From NCBI GenBank assembly GCA_902799045.1, contig CADBZH010000022.1:1-45408 (forward strand): 45,408 nucleotides of DNA. The letters are read 5' to 3'. Positions 2,445 to 29,338 of this stretch are shown in pieces; the first letter of the stretch is position 1; each line of letters opens with the position of its first letter. Under the pieces are notes generated by a model. The model saw nothing but the letters and a program-made list of their open reading frames with translations, had not been told where the DNA came from and searched no databases. The stretch comes from an uncultured Eubacteriales bacterium. GTDB lineage: Bacteria; Bacillota; Clostridia; Christensenellales; Aristaeellaceae. The position numbers and the translations under genes were made by a program.

Positions 2445-3798
2445 ATGAGCAAGTACACGAAGGAAGACATCATCCGCCTGGTGAAGGAAGGCGACGTGGA
2501 GTTCATCCGCATGCAGTTCACGGACATCTTCGGCCAGCTCAAGAACGTGGCCATCACCGCAAGCCAGATCGAGAAGGCCGTGAACAACGAGATCATGATC
2601 GACGGCAGCTCCATCGAGGGCTTCGTGCGCATCAACGAATCCGACCAGTACCTGCGGCCCGACCTGGACACGTTCGCGATCCTGCCCTGGCGGCCCCAGC
2701 ACGGCAAGGTGGCGCGGCTGATCTGCGACGTGTACAACCCGGACGGCACCCCCTTCATGGGCGACCCCCGCGGCACGCTGAAGCGCATCCTGAAGAAGGC
2801 CGCCGACATGGGCTACAGCTTCAACGTGGGCCCGGAATGCGAGTTCTTCCTGTTCCAGACCGACGAGCAGGGCCGGCCGACCACCACCACCGGCGACGAG
2901 GCAGGCTACTTCGACCTGGGCCCGCTGGACCACGGCGAGAGCACCCGGCGGGAGATCTGCATGGCGCTGGAGCAGATGGGCTTTGAGATCGAGGCCAGCC
3001 ACCACGAGGTGGCCGCGGGCCAGCACGAGATCGACTTCAAGTATGCTGACGCCCTGACCGCCGCCGACAACATCATGACCTTCAAGCTGGCGGTGAAGAC
3101 CCTGGCCCAGAAGAACGGCCTGCACGCCACGTTCATGCCCAAGCCGGTGTTCGTTCATGCCCAAGCCGGTGTTCGGCATCAACGGTTCGGGCATGCACAC
3201 CAACATGAGCCTGTTCAAGGACGGCAAGAACGTATTCGCCGATCCGTCCGACAGCCGCGGGCTGAGCAAGGAGGCCTATTCCTTCATTGCCGGCATCCTG
3301 AAGCACGTGCGGGGCATGGCAGCCATCACCAACCCGCTGGTGAACAGCTACAAGCGGCTGGTGCCGGGCTATGAAGCCCCCTGCTACCTGGCCTGGTCTG
3401 CCAGCAACCGTTCGGCTCTGATCCGCATTCCGGCGTCCCGGGGCATGGGCACCCGCGTGGAACTGCGCTGCCCGGACCCGAGCTGCAACCCGTACCTGAA
3501 CATGGCGGTCTGCCTGGCGGCGGGCCTGGACGGCATCGAAAAGGGCCTGACGCCGCCGGAGGAAATCACCGAGAACATCTTCGCCATGGACGCCGCCACC
3601 CGCGCGGCCAAGGGCATCGAGAGCCTGCCCGGGACGCTGCACGAGGCCGTGAAGTGCCTGAAGGCCGACGAGGTCATCTGCGAGGCGCTGGGCGAGCACG
3701 TGCTTTCCCAATATGTCGAGGGCAAGGAAAAGGAATGGGACGCCTATCGGACGCACGTGAGCAGCTGGGAGATCGACAGGTATCTGGTGATGTATTGA
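2445..3798 (+). pseudogene. glnA: Glutamine synthetase type I, frameshifted by a 22-bp tandem duplication
   Basis: Glutamine synthetase joins ammonia to glutamate with ATP and is the entry point of nitrogen here. The ATG at 2445 follows TCGGAGGTACAATT. The first frame reads normally ([19 protein letters not shown]) up to [10 protein letters not shown], then a perfect 22-bp duplication shifts the frame. The second frame resumes at [18 protein letters not shown] and continues through [17 protein letters not shown] to the stop at 3798. Removing one repeat unit restores a continuous 443-residue protein, exactly the usual length of Firmicutes type I GlnA, with no other damage visible. The lesion is therefore recent, reversible, or an assembly error. 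As written, the product is a 309-residue truncated protein with a foreign tail. Confidence 0.9.
3131..3174 (+). repeat. Perfect 22-bp tandem duplication inside glnA
   Basis: Bases 3131-3152 are repeated exactly at 3153-3174. The unit encodes FMPKPVF; since 22 is not a multiple of three, it shifts the reading frame by one. Confidence 0.97.
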
Positions 3799-3818: not shown

Positions 3819-3982
3819 ATTCAGTCCTCCCCCAGGGACTCCCTCAGTCTGGCCTTCGGCCAGCCAGCTCCCTCAGAGAGGGAGCCTGGACGGGAGCCTG
3901 TAGAGTACATTTCCTCATCAAAAGCCTCCCTCTCAGAGGGAGGTAGCCCGCGCAGCGGGTCGGAGGGAGTGTAGGACTGAAT
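3819..3982. repeat. 164-bp palindromic repeat between glnA and the ANTAR gene
   Basis: Outer ends ATTCAGTCCT and AGGACTGAAT are inverted copies. Inside are several CTCCCT/AGGGAG arms, including AGCTCCCTCAGAGAGGGAG and GCCTCCCTCTCAGAGGGAG. A segment near 3880-3902 is the inverted near-copy of a segment inside gltB (5998-6020, one mismatch in 23). It may also end glnA transcripts. Confidence 0.8.
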
Positions 3983-4060: not shown

Positions 4061-4582
4061 ATGCCGAGAATCATCATCGCCGGCGCGTCGGAAGCCAGCC
4101 GGACGCAGCTGAACCGACTGCTGACCGCCTCCGGCTTCGGCGTCTTTCGCCTCTGCGCCTCGGAGGGCGAGCTTCGGCGAACGCTGACGGAATGCGAGGA
4201 CGGCATTGTGCTCATCACCGGCATGCAGGCGGACGACATTGCCGCCGACTTCGAGGGCTGCTTTCAGTTCCTGCTGATCGCGAGGCCCGAGGCGCTGGAG
4301 GCCTGCGAATCGCCCTGCGTGTTCAAGCTGGCCTATCCCTGTCCCGGCAGCGCGGTGATCGGCGCGGTGGAGATGCTTTGCCAGCTGCATGCCATGCGCC
4401 TGCCCCACAGGAGCGGCGGGGACAGGGCGTTGGTGGAGGATGCGAAGCGCCTGCTGATGCGCCGCGAGGGCATCGACGAGCCCACCGCCCACCGCCATAT
4501 GCAGCTCTACGCCATGCGGCACAACATGAAGATGACGGACTACGCTGCACAGTTGTTACAAGGGGGTTCCAACGATGGTTGA
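4061..4582 (+). CDS. ANTAR-domain antiterminator with degenerate receiver domain
   Basis: ANTAR proteins bind nascent RNA hairpins and prevent terminator formation. The C-terminal part (about residues 120-168) has the ANTAR pattern: AKRLLMRREGIDEPTAHRHM followed by a basic/aromatic helix and MTDYAAQLL. The N-terminal 110 residues look like a receiver fold (IIIAGASEASRTQLNRLL, then GIVLITGM). The acidic pocket and phospho-accepting Asp expected at those places are absent, so control by phosphorylation is unlikely. The start follows a GGGAGG site. The stop overlaps the gltB start by 8 bp, indicating co-translation with gltB. Its place between glnA and gltB, near leader terminators of amt and glnA, suggests it senses nitrogen status and switches these genes. 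That link is inference. Confidence 0.85.
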   Translation: MPRIIIAGASEASRTQLNRLLTASGFGVFRLCASEGELRRTLTECEDGIVLITGMQADDIAADFEGCFQFLLIARPEALEACESPCVFKLAYPCPGSAVIGAVEMLCQLHAMRLPHRSGGDRALVEDAKRLLMRREGIDEPTAHRHMQLYAMRHNMKMTDYAAQLLQGGSNDG

Positions 4583-7500
4583 CCAGCAATATCCACTCTA
4601 TCACCCGGAACTGGAGCATGAATCCTGCGGCGTCGGCGCGATCGTCGACCTGAGCGGTCGCGCCACCCACCGCACGGTGGATCAGGCGCTGACCATCGTG
4701 GAGCGCCTGGCCCACAGAGCCGGTTCGGACGCCCTGGGCACCACCGGCGACGGCGTCGGCATCATGACCCGGCTGCCCCACGAATTCTTCACCGCATGGG
4801 CGCGGGAGGAAGGCATATCCCTCGGCAAGCCCGGCGACTATGGCGTCGGGATGTTCTTTTTGCCGGAGGACGAAGTCGGGGTTCAAAACGTCTGCCGGAT
4901 ATTCGACCAGTTGGCGGTGTCGGAGGGCATGAAGGTGCTGGGCTGGCGCGACGTGCCCTGTCACCCTGCCCAGCTGGGCGCGGGAGCGCGGCGCACCATG
5001 CCCCGCATAAGGCAGTGCTTTCTGAAGCGGCCCAAAGATGTTCTGTCTGATATTGATTTCGACAGAAAGCTGTATCTCCTTCGCCGGGTGTTTGAAAAGC
5101 AGGACACAGACACCTACATCTGCTCGCTGTCCAGCCGCACCGTCGTCTACAAGGGCATGATGCTGGTTTCCCAGCTGCGCTCCTTCTACGACGATCTGCA
5201 GGACGTGCGCTATGTCTCGTCCATGGCCATGGTGCACTCCCGCTTCTCGACGAACACCTTCCCCAGCTGGTCGAAGGCCCATCCGCAGCGGATGCTGCTG
5301 CACAACGGCGAGATCAACACCATCCGCGGCAACCACGACCGCATGAAGGCCCGGGAGGAGACGATGAAATCGGCGGTCATGGGCGACAGCATGAAGCGGG
5401 TTTTGCCCGTGGTGAACCCGAACGGCAGCGATTCCCAGATGCTGGACAACACACTGGAATTCCTGGCCATGAACGGCTTTCCGCTGCCGCTGGCGGGGAT
5501 GATTCTGCTGCCCGAACCCTGGCAGGGAGAGAAAGAAGCCAAGCCCTGGCACGACCTGTACCGCTACTACGCCACGATGATGGAGCCCTGGGACGGCCCC
5601 GCCGCCATCCTCTATTCCGACGGCGACAGCGTGTGCGCGTCGCTGGATCGCAACGGTCTGCGCCCGCTGAGGTGCGCCCTGACGGACGACAGGCGGCTGA
5701 TCCTGTCCAGCGAGGCCGGCGTACTATTTGAAGAGAACGCACACATCCGCCGCCGCTGGAAGCTGAAGGGCGGGGACGTGCTGATGGCGGATCTGCGCAG
5801 CGGCGAACTGATGGAATCGGAGAATTTGAAGTCCCGCTTTGCTGCGGAGCATCCCTATTCCGAATGGGTCAAGAACATCATTCATCTGGAGGACCTCCCT
5901 CCGTCGCCCTGCGGCGACACCTCCCCCGAAGAGGGAGGCGAACTCCTTCCGACCCGGCTTCGCCGGGCTACCTCCCTCACAGAGGGAGGCGATATAGGCT
6001 CCCGTCCTGGCTCCCTCTCTGAGGGAGCTGGCAGCCGAAGGCTGACTGAGGGAGTTGAGGGAGCTGGCAAGCGCAGCGCGACCGAGGGAGTCTGTGACGT
6101 GGAAACCCTCTGCAAGGCCTTCGGCTACGCCTATGAGGACGTGCAGGATGTCATCCTGCCGATGGCGGAAACCGGGCAGGAGCCCATCGTGTCCATGGGC
6201 GCGGACGAACCGCTGGCGGCGCTGTCGAAGGTCCACCCGCCGCTGTACGATTATTTCAAGCAGCGCTTCGCCCAGGTGACCAACCCGCCCATCGACGCGC
6301 TGCGGGAGGCCTGCAAGACGGACTGCTCCATCACCATCGGCGACGACGGGAACCTCCTGTCCCATGATCCCGACAACTGCACCGTGCTGGAGCTGCCCTC
6401 GCCGGTGCTGACGGAGGCGGAGTTGCGGCGCATCCGGGGCATCGACCATCCGTCGTTCACGGTGAAGGAAATCTCCCTGCTGTATCCGGACAGGGCGCGG
6501 CTTCGCCAGGCCATGCGGGGCTTCTTCGCCGCCTGCGACGCGGCCTGTGCGGATGGCGCGAATATTCTGATCCTGTCCGATAAGGGCGTGGACGCGGACC
6601 ACCTGGCCATCCCGTCGCTGCTGGCGGTGTCGGCGCTGGAGCAGCACCTCATTCACATCAAGAAGCGCACGAAGGTCTCCGTCATCCTGGAGAGCGGCGA
6701 GCCCCGCGACACGCATCAGCTGGCCATGCTGATCGCCTACGGCGCGCGGGCGGTGAACCCGTACCTGGCCCACGCGGTCATCCGGGAAAAGCTCTCCGGC
6801 GAAGCAATCGGCAACTACGACAGAGCCCTGACGGCGGGCGTATTGAAGATCGCATCGAAGATGGGCGTGTCCACGCTGCAGGCCTACCAGAGCGCCCAGC
6901 TGTTCGAGGCTGTGGGACTGGATCGGCAGTTCATCGATCAGTATTTCACCAACACCCCCTGTTCTCTGGGCGGAAAGGGATTGCACGACGCGGAGGCCGA
7001 CAGCCGGTATCACCACGATCAGGCGTTCCTGAACCCCGTCCAGGCGGGTCTGACCAGCGTCGGCAGGCACAAGCTCCGCACCGGCGAGGGCGCCGAGGCG
7101 CATCTCTACAGCCCGAAGGTCATCCACCTGCTGCAACAGGCGGTGTGGACAAACGACAGGGCGAAGTTCGACGCATACGCGAAGCTGGTGGAGGACGACG
7201 GTCCGCGCACCCTCCGTGCCATGCTGGACTTCAACTATGAGGCGTGCCAGCCCGTGCCTCTGGAGGAGGTGGAGCCGGTCGAATCCATCGTGAAGCGCTT
7301 CAAGACCGGCGCGATGTCCTACGGCTCCATCTCCCGTGAGGCGCACGAGTGCATGGCGAAGGCCATGAACCGCCTGGGCGGCAAGAGCAACAGCGGCGAG
7401 GGCGGCGAGCTGCCGGAGCGCTTCGGCACGGAGCTGAACTCCGCCATCAAGCAGGTGGCCTCCGGGCGCTTCGGCGTGACCCGGGACTATCTTCTCAGCG

Positions 7501-9113
7501 CCAAGGAGATCCAGATCAAGATGGCCCAGGGCGCGAAGCCCGGCGAGGGCGGCCACCTGCCCGGCGCGAAGGTGACGGAGAGCGTAGCCAGGACCCGCTG
7601 CTCCACGCCCGGCATCTCGCTGATCTCTCCCCCGCCCCACCACGACATCTACTCCATCGAGGATCTGGCGGAACTCATCTATGACCTGCAATGCGCGAAC
7701 GAGGACGCGAAGATCACCGTGAAGCTGGTGTCCTCCACCGGCGTGGGCACCATCGCCAGCGGCGTGGCCAAGGCCGGGGCGGGCGGCATCCTGATCTCCG
7801 GCGGCGAGGGCGGCACCGGCGCGGCGCCGATGTCCAGCGTCCACCACGCGGGGCTTCCCTGGGAAATCGGGCTGGCTGAGGCCCACCAGGTGCTGTGCCG
7901 GAACCGCCTGCGCCAGACCGTGACGCTGGAGACCGACGGCAAGCTGATGTCCGGGCACGACGTGGCCGTGGCGCTGCTGCTGGGCGCGGAGGAATTCGGC
8001 TTCGCCACCGCGCCGCTGATCACGATGGGCTGCCGCATGATGCGCGTGTGCCAGCTGGGCACCTGCCCCTTCGGCGTGGCGACCCAAAACCCTGAATTGC
8101 GCAAGCGGTTCGTCGGAAAGCCCGAGTACGTGGAGCGCTTCATGATCTTCGCGGCCCAGCAGCTTCGTCAGATCATGGCGAGGCTCGGCGCGCGGACGGT
8201 GAACGAGCTGGTGGGCCGAAGCGACCTTTTGAAGATGAAGGACGGTTCGCCGATGGACCTGTCCGCCCTGATCGGCTTTAGCCGGAACACCCACGTCCAG
8301 CCGGAATCGAAGCATGATTTCAGGCTGCATGAGCGCATGGACGCGCGGCTGATACAAAACCACGTCCAACTCACCACCACCGACCGGGCCTTCGGCACGC
8401 TTCTAAAGGGCGAGCGCCACATCCAGGCCCAGGGCTGCGGCGGACAGAGCTTCGGCGCGTTCCTGCCGAAGGGGCAGAGCGTCACGCTCTACGGCGTGGC
8501 CAACGACTACCTGGGCAAGGGGCTCTCCGGCGGCATGCTTTCCATCTGCCCACCCGCGGACGCGGTGTGGAACCCGGATGACACGTTGATCGGAAATGTG
8601 GCGCTCTACGGCGCGACCTCCGGCCACGCCTTCATCGCGGGCATGGCGGGCGAGCGCTTCGCCGTGCGCAATTCCGGCGCGTGGGCCGTGGTGGAGGGCG
8701 TCGGCGACCACGGCTGCGAGTACATGACCGGCGGCCGCGTGGCGGTGCTGGGGCCTGTGGGCGACAACTTCGGCGCGGGCATGTCCGGCGGCATCGCCTG
8801 GGTGCTGGACGCGGACGGCAGGCTGGAGGGCCGGGTCAACAGCGCCGTGGTGCGGGTGCATGAGGTCACCCGCGAGCAGGCCGCGGAGTTGAAGAAGCTG
8901 CTGGAAATGCACCTGGATCAGACGGGGTCGGCCAAAGCCCGTGAAATCCTCGCGGATTTCGAGGCGTGGCTGCCGAGGTTCAAGGCCGTCATTTCGGATG
9001 AGTATCTGGACTATTTAAGCGTCCGGCACAGCCGGACTGAGGGCGCAAGCGCAGTTGAAGACAAGACGCGCCCGAAACCCGCGGCCCGCGCAAGCGTGGA
9101 CGCGGGGCGATAA
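4575..9113 (+). CDS. gltB: Glutamate synthase large subunit with a 65-residue repeat-encoded insertion
   Basis: The large (alpha) subunit takes the amide of glutamine and reductively aminates 2-oxoglutarate to make two glutamates, receiving electrons from GltD. Domain order: Ntn glutaminase starting at Cys18 (HESCGVGAIV) to about residue 430; central domain about 510-830; FMN domain about 860-1250, with SISREAHECMAKAMNR, GGEGGTGAAP and the 3Fe-4S cysteines in CRMMRVCQLGTCPFG (residue 1153 on); C-terminal GXGXG beta-helix about 1300-1480. Length is 1512 residues. Residues 442-506 are not family sequence: they translate palindromic repeats also found between genes here, yet the frame stays open on both sides (LEDL before, DVETLCKAFGY after). 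The last roughly 25 residues are low-complexity. RBS AAGGGGG; it overlaps the ANTAR gene and is followed by gltD after 17 bp. Confidence 0.95.
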   Translation: MVDQQYPLYHPELEHESCGVGAIVDLSGRATHRTVDQALTIVERLAHRAGSDALGTTGDGVGIMTRLPHEFFTAWAREEGISLGKPGDYGVGMFFLPEDEVGVQNVCRIFDQLAVSEGMKVLGWRDVPCHPAQLGAGARRTMPRIRQCFLKRPKDVLSDIDFDRKLYLLRRVFEKQDTDTYICSLSSRTVVYKGMMLVSQLRSFYDDLQDVRYVSSMAMVHSRFSTNTFPSWSKAHPQRMLLHNGEINTIRGNHDRMKAREETMKSAVMGDSMKRVLPVVNPNGSDSQMLDNTLEFLAMNGFPLPLAGMILLPEPWQGEKEAKPWHDLYRYYATMMEPWDGPAAILYSDGDSVCASLDRNGLRPLRCALTDDRRLILSSEAGVLFEENAHIRRRWKLKGGDVLMADLRSGELMESENLKSRFAAEHPYSEWVKNIIHLEDLPPSPCGDTSPEEGGELLPTRLRRATSLTEGGDIGSRPGSLSEGAGSRRLTEGVEGAGKRSATEGVCDVETLCKAFGYAYEDVQDVILPMAETGQEPIVSMGADEPLAALSKVHPPLYDYFKQRFAQVTNPPIDALREACKTDCSITIGDDGNLLSHDPDNCTVLELPSPVLTEAELRRIRGIDHPSFTVKEISLLYPDRARLRQAMRGFFAACDAACADGANILILSDKGVDADHLAIPSLLAVSALEQHLIHIKKRTKVSVILESGEPRDTHQLAMLIAYGARAVNPYLAHAVIREKLSGEAIGNYDRALTAGVLKIASKMGVSTLQAYQSAQLFEAVGLDRQFIDQYFTNTPCSLGGKGLHDAEADSRYHHDQAFLNPVQAGLTSVGRHKLRTGEGAEAHLYSPKVIHLLQQAVWTNDRAKFDAYAKLVEDDGPRTLRAMLDFNYEACQPVPLEEVEPVESIVKRFKTGAMSYGSISREAHECMAKAMNRLGGKSNSGEGGELPERFGTELNSAIKQVASGRFGVTRDYLLSAKEIQIKMAQGAKPGEGGHLPGAKVTESVARTRCSTPGISLISPPPHHDIYSIEDLAELIYDLQCANEDAKITVKLVSSTGVGTIASGVAKAGAGGILISGGEGGTGAAPMSSVHHAGLPWEIGLAEAHQVLCRNRLRQTVTLETDGKLMSGHDVAVALLLGAEEFGFATAPLITMGCRMMRVCQLGTCPFGVATQNPELRKRFVGKPEYVERFMIFAAQQLRQIMARLGARTVNELVGRSDLLKMKDGSPMDLSALIGFSRNTHVQPESKHDFRLHERMDARLIQNHVQLTTTDRAFGTLLKGERHIQAQGCGGQSFGAFLPKGQSVTLYGVANDYLGKGLSGGMLSICPPADAVWNPDDTLIGNVALYGATSGHAFIAGMAGERFAVRNSGAWAVVEGVGDHGCEYMTGGRVAVLGPVGDNFGAGMSGGIAWVLDADGRLEGRVNSAVVRVHEVTREQAAELKKLLEMHLDQTGSAKAREILADFEAWLPRFKAVISDEYLDYLSVRHSRTEGASAVEDKTRPKPAARASVDAGR
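5893..6092 (+). repeat. Composite palindromic repeat inserted in frame in gltB
   Basis: About 200 bp made of three blocks with CTCCCT and AGGGAG arms: TCCGTCGCCCTGCGGCGACA then GAAGAGGGAGGCG; CTCCTTCCGACCCGGCTTCG with CTCACAGAGGGAGGCG; and CTCCCTCTCTGAGGGAGCTG then AGGCTGACTGAGGGAG. GGCTCCCGTCCTGGCTCCCT is a near-exact inverted copy of part of the repeat after glnA. It encodes Gly/Ser/Arg/Glu-rich peptide with no resemblance to glutamate synthase. This parallels the known behaviour of Rickettsia palindromic elements, which also insert in frame in genes. Confidence 0.85.
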
Positions 9114-12405: not shown

Positions 12406-13350
12406 ATGAAGAAACTGCTTGCCATTCTCGTCGCCGCCATGCTCTGCCTGGGCATGACCGCCGTTGCCGAAGCGACCTACACCGTGGGCGTGTGCCAGCT
12501 GGTGCAGCACCCCGCGCTGGACGCCGCCACCCAGGGCTTTGTGGACGCCCTGACCGAGAAGCTGGGAGACGCCGTTGCCATCGACGTGCAGAACGCCTCC
12601 GGTGATTCCAACACCTGCTCCACCATCGTGAACGGCTTTGTCTCCGACAACGTGAGCCTCATCATGGCCAACGCCACGCCGGCGCTGCAGGCCGCCGTGG
12701 CCGCCACCGGCGATATCCCGATCCTGGGCACCTCGGTCACCGACTACGCCACCGCCCTGGAGATCGACGGCTGGACCGGCGCGACGGGCATCAACGTCTC
12801 CGGCACCAGCGACCTGGCCCCTCTGGACCAGCAGGCCGCGATGCTCAGCGAGCTGTTCCCGGACGCCAAGGTCGTGGGCCTGCTGTATTGCTCCGCCGAG
12901 CCGAACAGCAAGTACCAGGCGGACGTGATCACCGGCTGCCTCACCGAGCTGGGCTATGAGACCGTGGAATACACCTTTGCCGATTCCAACGACGTGGCCA
13001 GCGTCGCCCAGAGCGCCTGCGACGGCTGCGACGTGATCTACATCCCCACCGACAACACCGCCGCCAGCTGCACCGAGGCCATCCGCAACGTGGTGGAGCC
13101 CGCCGCCAAGCCGGTGATCGCCGGCGAGGAGGGCATCTGCAAGGGCTGCGGCGTCGCGACGCTGTCCATCAGCTACTACGACCTGGGCTATGCCACCGGC
13201 GAGATGGCCTGCGAGGTGCTGGTGAACGGCGCGGACGTGGCCACCCTCCCCGTCACCTTCGCCCCCAACGTCACCAAGGAGTACAACGCCGAGCTGGCCG
13301 AAGCCCTGGGCGTGACCATCCCCGAGGACTACGTGGCCATCGAGGGCTGA
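12406..13350 (+). CDS. ABC transporter substrate-binding protein (TrpX-like, ABC_sub_bind family)
   Basis: This is the extracytoplasmic binding component of the importer. It has a Sec signal peptide (KKLLAILVAAMLCLGMTAVA, cleavage probably after AEA), with a Cys in the hydrophobic core but no clear lipobox. The mature part shows the two-lobed pattern of the ABC_sub_bind family: TVGVCQLVQHPALDAATQGF, ILGTSVTDYATALE, IYIPTDNTAAS and YYDLGYATGEMACEVLV. Length 314 residues. The start ATG 12406 follows GAGGAGG; an upstream in-frame ATG has no ribosome site. In this family tryptophan/tyrosine transport is a common prediction, and the aromatic leader peptide upstream fits that, but the ligand is not shown by the sequence. 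Confidence 0.88.
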   Translation: MKKLLAILVAAMLCLGMTAVAEATYTVGVCQLVQHPALDAATQGFVDALTEKLGDAVAIDVQNASGDSNTCSTIVNGFVSDNVSLIMANATPALQAAVAATGDIPILGTSVTDYATALEIDGWTGATGINVSGTSDLAPLDQQAAMLSELFPDAKVVGLLYCSAEPNSKYQADVITGCLTELGYETVEYTFADSNDVASVAQSACDGCDVIYIPTDNTAASCTEAIRNVVEPAAKPVIAGEEGICKGCGVATLSISYYDLGYATGEMACEVLVNGADVATLPVTFAPNVTKEYNAELAEALGVTIPEDYVAIEG

Positions 13351-13433
13351 CGACCGAGAAGAGCGCTCAGCGCAGTGCGGATATGGATTCCCTGCACAGC
13401 GGGAACAAAACCCATTGCCGCTCGCGCCGGGTC

Positions 13434-29082: not shown

Positions 29083-29260
29083 CAAGAAAGCAAAGATAAA
29101 TAACCGTTTATGTATGGTTACATGTAATCAAAACTGAATCGCTCCGAGATCCGCACGGAAGCGATGCGGTCCCGGAAGCCTTTTGAGCATTCACGCAAAC
29201 CCGGGAACGAGACGAGGAGACTTGCAAGGTTTCTCTTGCGAAGCTGCTCACTAACGAAAC

Positions 29261-29338
29261 GTACAGATCCTTCGCTTCGCTCAGGATGACAGGGCTTTCG
29301 ATACGCTGTCATTCTGCGCGAAGCGAAGGATTTGTACG
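29261..29338. repeat. REP-like inverted repeat, copy 2
   Basis: Arms GTACAGATCCTTCGCTTCGC with TCAGGATGACA, and TGTCATTCTGCGC with GAAGCGAAGGATTTGTAC. Same family as 13434-13511. Confidence 0.8.

Follow-up and report, generated by a model that had tools for sequence, protein, structure and literature searches.

Palindromic repeats inside the gltB reading frame

We analysed a window of 45,408 nucleotides (contig CADBZH010000022.1) from an uncultured Eubacteriales bacterium, whose genome is designated G000. On the forward strand of this window, gltB, encoding the large subunit of glutamate synthase (NF008730, 1436.5 bits for a cut-off of 1047), extends over positions 4575..9113 as a single unbroken frame of 1512 amino acids. 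The GATase_2 domain (Pfam PF00310, 506 bits; residues 18-431, positions 4626..5867) stops just 5', and the Glu_syn_central domain (Pfam PF04898, 340 bits; residues 514-783, positions 6114..6923) starts just 3', of a repeat-derived linker of ~66 residues (approximately residues 440-506; positions 5893..6092, same strand). A first-pass annotation, made from the sequence alone, had proposed that about 65 residues of GltB are encoded by intergenic-type repeats, at the joint that follows the glutaminase domain and with the frame kept open. Each of these points is borne out by the repeat units, the matches within the same genome, the comparison of linkers and a structure model.

More specifically, the joint contains, in frame, four units of a repeat that we call R1, three of them complete and one partial. 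Unit 1, of left-half type, lies at 5894..5939 (forward strand, 37.7 bits), and unit 2, the left half of a bipartite element, at 5942..5990 (forward, 59.3 bits). Unit 3 is an inverted right half at 6009..6055 (reverse strand, 65.3 bits), followed by a partial right half at 6056..6091 (reverse), which is a 36-nt tandem copy of 6020-6055 (repeat pairing 81%; R1 16.6 bits, E 0.097, at ~6060-6091). A search of the same genome with the insert gave 50 matches at E <= 0.01; one of these is the insert itself, and the best of the remainder has an E-value of 6e-29. The kinship between insert and repeats is therefore beyond chance. The insert is also strongly palindromic, with a fold z of -5.55 compared with -1.29 to +0.81 for six surrounding coding windows of the same length. 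The linker of relatives measures 63 nt, and that of G000 is longer by a net 168 nt (56 codons); the repeats thus also displaced about 10 native gltB codons. Predicted tryptic peptides from inside the insert include ATSLTEGGDIGSR and LTEGVEGAGK.

A bipartite copy of the linker repeat occupies the spacer after the adjoining glnA gene (3838..3970, with units at 3838-3886 on the forward strand and 3924-3970 on the reverse strand; R1 78.3 and 54.8 bits). The inverted copy reported earlier at this place is present, but its extent of 22 matches in 23 was too low: the pairing between 3863-3902 and 5993-6032 extends over 40 nt (95%), and a second inverted pair joins 3924-3950 with 5964-5990 (27 nt at 93%). 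The glnA gene itself (window ~2445-3798) is interrupted by a frameshift, with two overlapping frames covering Gln-synt_C positions 2-149 and 138-344, respectively, which is either an assembly error or a real break; the assembly of this contig is thus not flawless. At the other end of gltB, the C-terminal tail of the protein (residues 1483-1512, positions 9021..9110, forward strand) is also repeat-like (fold z -2.77), and blastn places an inverted relative of it inside the gltB of another genome, G024, at residue ~1262 (93.75% over 32 nt, 80% over 56 nt).

The structure of GltB residues 1-790 was predicted with AlphaFold2 using 41 relatives (pTM 0.83). Residues 447-506 have a pLDDT below 50 and no predicted secondary structure; block means are 28-44 for residues 451-500, 94-96 for residues 411-440 and 87 for residues 511-530, and another low-confidence loop lies at residues 541-580 (block means 48-53). 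This very low confidence is what would be expected of a disordered loop, the natural reading of the model, bearing in mind that low pLDDT is expected anyway for a stretch without aligned relatives.

Structure, spread and movers of the repeats

R1 was defined as a 49-position model from 11 selected units that have the same length. A unit consists of ACTCCCTC, a covarying hairpin and then a near-invariant hairpin, CTCCCTC-nnn-GAGGGAG. In the variable hairpin of the 11 chosen units 98.2% of cells are paired, compared with at most 53.3% in slid controls. Three of five covariation measures lie above all 500 shuffles, while the other two, which count changed pairs and pair types, are equalled by 28 and 141 of the 500, respectively. 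Two R1 units in opposite orientation form the bipartite element, and the element ends (ACTCCCTC...GAGGGAGT) are mutually inverted; at gltB, native codons are replaced and no target-site duplication was seen by eye. At the 5' end of the hairpin, R1 units mostly carry GTGG or CTGG and few carry GTAG, which places R1 outside the GTAG-REPs. No Rfam family matched the window at gathering threshold.

In G000, R1 has at least 110 matches at at least 72 sites, a lower bound obtained by scoring 150 of 4176 first-look candidates. All 28 genomes of the genus, own included, carry R1 at E <= 0.001, with 5 to at least 150 matches each, and under stricter filters it was found in 22 members, G000 among them, of a 200-genome sample of the order. 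We inspected 69 of the 72 G000 sites, the other three lacking fetched DNA: three lie inside conserved genes, and the repeat is mostly intergenic. Capture of R1 within genes is rare; a few linkers take up repeats repeatedly, and genes are not full of them. The window also contains, at 29260-29338, a long inverted repeat of CTTCGCTTCGCTCAGGATGACAG type with 33-nt arms (91%), and a repeat of the same kind is predicted to be translated in the linker of a GTPase from genome G017.

Y1 transposases (RAYT; PF01797), which occur in 16 of the 28 genus genomes, were considered as movers of R1 and rejected: 22 of 45 PF01797 matches were fetched with flanks of up to 1.5 kb (two loci overlapping), and 21 of these loci have no R1-type unit. 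The sole fetched PF01797 locus near R1 units is a remnant (G000 C10:8478), and the repeat cluster beside it is the one that resembles the gltB insert most closely. A Y1 transposase is supported as the mover of the GTAG-REP. The GTAG hairpin was found in 3 of 19 transposase loci, with 10 matches in 59.9 kb compared with 8 in 160.9 kb of control loci; nine of the ten sit at two loci, L176 (G011) and L177 (G006), where the GTAG repeat flanks the transposase genes in the REP/RAYT arrangement. At both loci (G011 C3, ~13028-13405; G006 C8, ~94412-94732) the same REP is also seen inside the transposases' own frame, after MPNHVH, as a perfect hairpin in G011 and with one mismatch in G006.

Repeat-filled joints in gltB and two further genes

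The gltB joint was compared across 35 loci, own included. Linker length was taken from both flanks in 34 of them, and all 34 linkers are a multiple of three in length and free of stop codons; the remaining locus (G022 C268) ends too early for this measure and is plain by a motif-based reading. Repeats are absent from 24 of the 35 linkers, nine are repeat-filled and two hold apparent remnants, and close relatives do not all carry a conserved, alignable segment at residues 442-506, the alignment that the first-pass annotation had proposed. One short length is common to 19 plain linkers (63 nt by motif, 54 nt from both flanks), and the linkers of the more distant RGIG2719, G033, G035, G038 and G056 are 9-12 nt longer and have no R1. 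The linker of G001 is plain by the two-flank measure.

The nine filled alleles are those of G000, G016, G006, G003, G004, G012, G017, G022 (contig C37) and G023 (C135), and R1 is detected at E <= 0.01 in the same nine. The linkers of G021 and G011 may be decayed repeat remnants on a reading by eye, R1 having an E-value of 0.36 in G021 and none reported in G011. Fillings differ in make-up: G006 has four units in one orientation at a spacing of 48-51 nt, G023 C135 three units in the other orientation at a spacing of 42 nt, G022 C37 two left and three right halves, and G003 the remnant of a unit followed by GTAG-type repeats (fold z -1.29, not palindromic). Seven of the nine (G000, G016, G006, G003, G004, G017 and G022 C37) share one left boundary (LPPS, around ACTCCCTCCGTC), and the boundaries of G012 and G023 C135 differ from it. 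Four of the genomes with filled alleles (G012, G016, G022 and G023) show 6-9% contamination, and the host of their alleles is therefore uncertain. Two gltB alleles each were seen in G007 (C34/C45), G022 (C37/C268) and G023 (C17/C135), in the latter two genomes one plain and one filled; such pairs may be second genes, strain mixtures or contamination.

Elsewhere in gltB, three species (genomes G024, G009 and G020) have in common an 81-nt in-frame insert of consecutive palindromes at residue ~1039, inside the Glu_synthase domain (fold z -7.24 in G024). An insert at 654 in G010 is palindromic as well (fold z -3.79), and the inserts at 1262 are not (z 0.06 in G027 and -1.54 in G024).

A search of the genome for copies inside other genes, also proposed in the first pass, added two, so that the conserved G000 genes holding repeats are gltB, a gene for an FAD-dependent protein (PF21688) and one for an EF-G/TetM-like GTPase (406 bits, with the resistance-family cut-off at 775). 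Pfam domains flank the copy on both sides in gltB and in the GTPase; in the FAD-dependent protein it follows an N-terminal part that is conserved but matches no Pfam family, and precedes the FAD-binding part, which starts at residue 172. Across the genus, the linker of the FAD-dependent protein ranges from 36 to 459 nt (12-153 amino acids) and is in frame in 24 of 25 genes, with no stop in any of these linkers, two more genes without the N-terminal part being left out of this count; the exception, in G018, also has a stop in its FAD part. R1 (E <= 0.01) was found in this linker in six genomes (G000, G014, G002, G017, G008 and G022), some of the matches being to a sister repeat. The GTPase linker ranges from 24 to 267 nt (8-89 amino acids), is in frame and stop-free in 27 of 27 genes, and contains R1 in G000, G022, G008 and G018.

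Other linkers are occupied by other repeats: G017 has a 24-nt repeat, GTAGGGACGCCATAATTGGCGTCC, and, like G002, repeats of CGCTCAGGATGAC type, and a GTAG-like repeat is present in both G026 and G010. The GTAG-REP itself is present in the G003 gltB and the G017 GTPase. In addition, FAD-protein linkers such as those of L223, L224, L228, L229, L232 and L246 show a further in-frame repeat, read as a variable stem and a loop like TGAATCAGTG or TGGAATCAGTG, which is tandem in some of them; one similar stretch (L027) lies outside the gene for this protein.

Inspection and a codon score revealed no fourth gene with an internal copy among 20 regions, mostly long frames, drawn from the matches listed in coding-frame searches of the 28 genomes with the insert and G006 peptides. 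The codon-score scan of 63 repeat clusters picked gltB, the FAD-dependent protein and the G022 GTPase, and it missed the degenerate copy in the G000 GTPase. Four rows that it raised as candidates (L010, L023, L280 and L286) proved to be between-gene repeats or noise.

Origin of the filled linkers and relation to known systems

We interpret these linkers as the product of recurrent, tolerated in-frame capture of selfish palindromic repeats by disordered linkers, a counterpart of the Rickettsia palindromic elements (RPEs), and assign this reading a probability of about 0.82; the first-pass interpretation as a whole is supported. Under this reading, a high-copy bipartite palindromic repeat would spread mostly between genes. 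Where a copy came to lie in an inter-domain joint, in frame and stop-free, the protein would still work and the insert could persist, probably translated and tolerated rather than useful. The captured insert may then gain and lose units in three-base steps and decay like a neutral linker. Entry would probably proceed via a short match of the repeat ends (ACTCCC... and ...GAGTTGA) with native codons.

Several observations bear on the constraint that the protein would impose. The domains flanking the GltB linker are under purifying selection (dN/dS 0.079-0.255 in six pairs, some with inserts in both members), a measure that is only a proxy for a working protein. Read in the frame of gltB, the joint between units in five intergenic arrays of G006 is GGC-TAA-CTC in four and GGC-TGA-CTC in one; within the G006 gltB it is GGC-TTA-CTC all three times, and the stop is avoided. 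At G000 intergenic sites of at least 76 nt, 75 of 168 frames are open (45%), and as a rough figure chance alone would bring the correct frame and openness together in one of every seven events or so. Unit spacing is a multiple of three at 20 of 24 gene loci versus 43 of 97 intergenic ones, a contrast that is only suggestive, the gene set including flank copies and the intergenic set being partly picked by peptide similarity; the intergenic proportion also indicates that multiples of three are partly built into the repeat.

The number of events was addressed with a maximum-likelihood tree of the GltB domains without the linker (32 alleles, many nodes with low support). With remnants coded as filled and G001 as unknown, parsimony gave a plain root and seven changes, or seven gains if loss was disallowed. 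Label shuffles did as well or better in 65 of 1000 cases (seven changes or fewer); the filled alleles are accordingly near scattered on the tree, and the presence labels are not clearly non-random. The clearest case is G023 C135, a filled allele nested in a 100%-supported clade with the plain G027 and G023 C17. Taken together with the differing units, the joint would have been filled about seven times.

The main competitor to this account is a single ancestral insertion in gltB, followed by gene conversion between copies and by loss through recombination with plain alleles in many species. It would explain the left boundary common to seven of the nine filled alleles, which counts against independent entries, although in our reading this boundary probably marks an easily entered site whose native codons resemble the repeat end. 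We nevertheless consider a single insertion unlikely. The 19 plain linkers have one length and are alike by eye, so that simple deletion from a filled linker does not account for them; parsimony places a plain allele at the root and requires seven changes; and G012 and G023 C135 have other boundaries, the latter also the other orientation within its otherwise plain clade. In the common part of the G000 and G016 inserts, differences fall in both arms of one hairpin, and pS is 0.13 (21 codons only) compared with 0.31 at flanking synonymous sites; the low pS and the paired-arm changes together point to sequence exchange with other copies or to separate captures, and not to simple descent.

It is also possible, though we hold this only tentatively, that certain inter-domain linkers in this genus are standing landing sites. 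Palindromic repeats of many kinds would enter there through a short sequence match and be swapped as cassettes. If so, selfish repeats would continually supply core enzymes with new linker sequence and length.

The position at domain joints and the strong RNA hairpins might instead suggest that the insert has been recruited, either as a spacer tuning the communication between glutaminase and synthase or as a hairpin in the mRNA at which the ribosome would be slowed between domains. The free variation in length, composition and orientation and the short plain linker of many relatives make such a role improbable. Assemblies can misjoin at repeats, and the frameshift in the neighbouring glnA might encourage the view that repeat reads were misjoined into gltB. 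This is very improbable given nine gltB loci with differing repeats at the same joint, in frame and stop-free, two apparent remnants, and the same pattern in two other genes. Removal of the segment before, during or after translation (as an intron, an intein-like element or by ribosome bypass) has nothing but the strong hairpins in its favour and is scarcely credible, since neither removal at the RNA level nor bypass would need multiples of three or a stop-free frame, yet both are found in 34/34 gltB, 24/25 FAD-protein and 27/27 GTPase linkers, and the window has no Rfam match at gathering threshold.

Recurrent capture thus remains our preferred reading, and the related genomes are numerous enough for the entry of repeats, their expansion and decay, and the avoidance of stops to be followed at a single site, with several captures that can be compared. 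The long-standing idea of repeats as a supply of new protein sequence becomes testable in one enzyme by a simple growth assay.

Protein-coding palindromes are known mainly from Rickettsia and from scattered other bacteria, and the Rickettsia elements are reportedly due to the work of Ogata, Claverie and co-workers. Within the open-licence PMC literature, a scope that leaves most subscription papers outside, we found no report of in-frame palindromic repeat capture in Clostridia among the best-matching papers listed. In the excerpts of PMC2229807 used here, RPEs are described as palindromic interspersed repeats of 105-146 bp, located between and, in frame, within conserved Rickettsia genes, and an RPE-bearing guanylate kinase as translated and active. 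Like RPEs, the present repeats are high-copy, mostly intergenic, palindromic, in frame in conserved genes and absent from orthologues, a likeness of phenomenon; unlike RPEs, they belong to another phylum, and the same joints are filled repeatedly, by several repeat families.

A second parallel is found in GTAG/CGTC REPs, which according to the excerpts used of Di Nocera et al. (2013, PMC3733652) occur in ORFs as singles, dimers and clusters encoding up to 43-82 amino acids and fill recB of two Xanthomonas species at approximately the same site; no word beginning with clostridi appears in the main text of that paper. The GTAG-REPs in the G003 gltB and the G017 GTPase resemble them, whereas R1 differs in its GTGG/CTGG and in having no RAYT link. 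The enterobacterial RU-1/RU-2/RU-3 MITEs (Delihas 2007, PMC2759123, PMC2229807), in the parts of these sources used, are likewise small mobile repeats with open frames fused in frame into genes, but they are enterobacterial and of other sequences, and those parts of their description do not include a single linker that captures repeats repeatedly throughout a genus. In-frame coding palindromic repeats, as RPEs and as intragenic REPs, are thus already known; the present variant is their recurrence at the same joints of three proteins in one genus, through several repeat families and with replacement of the native linker.
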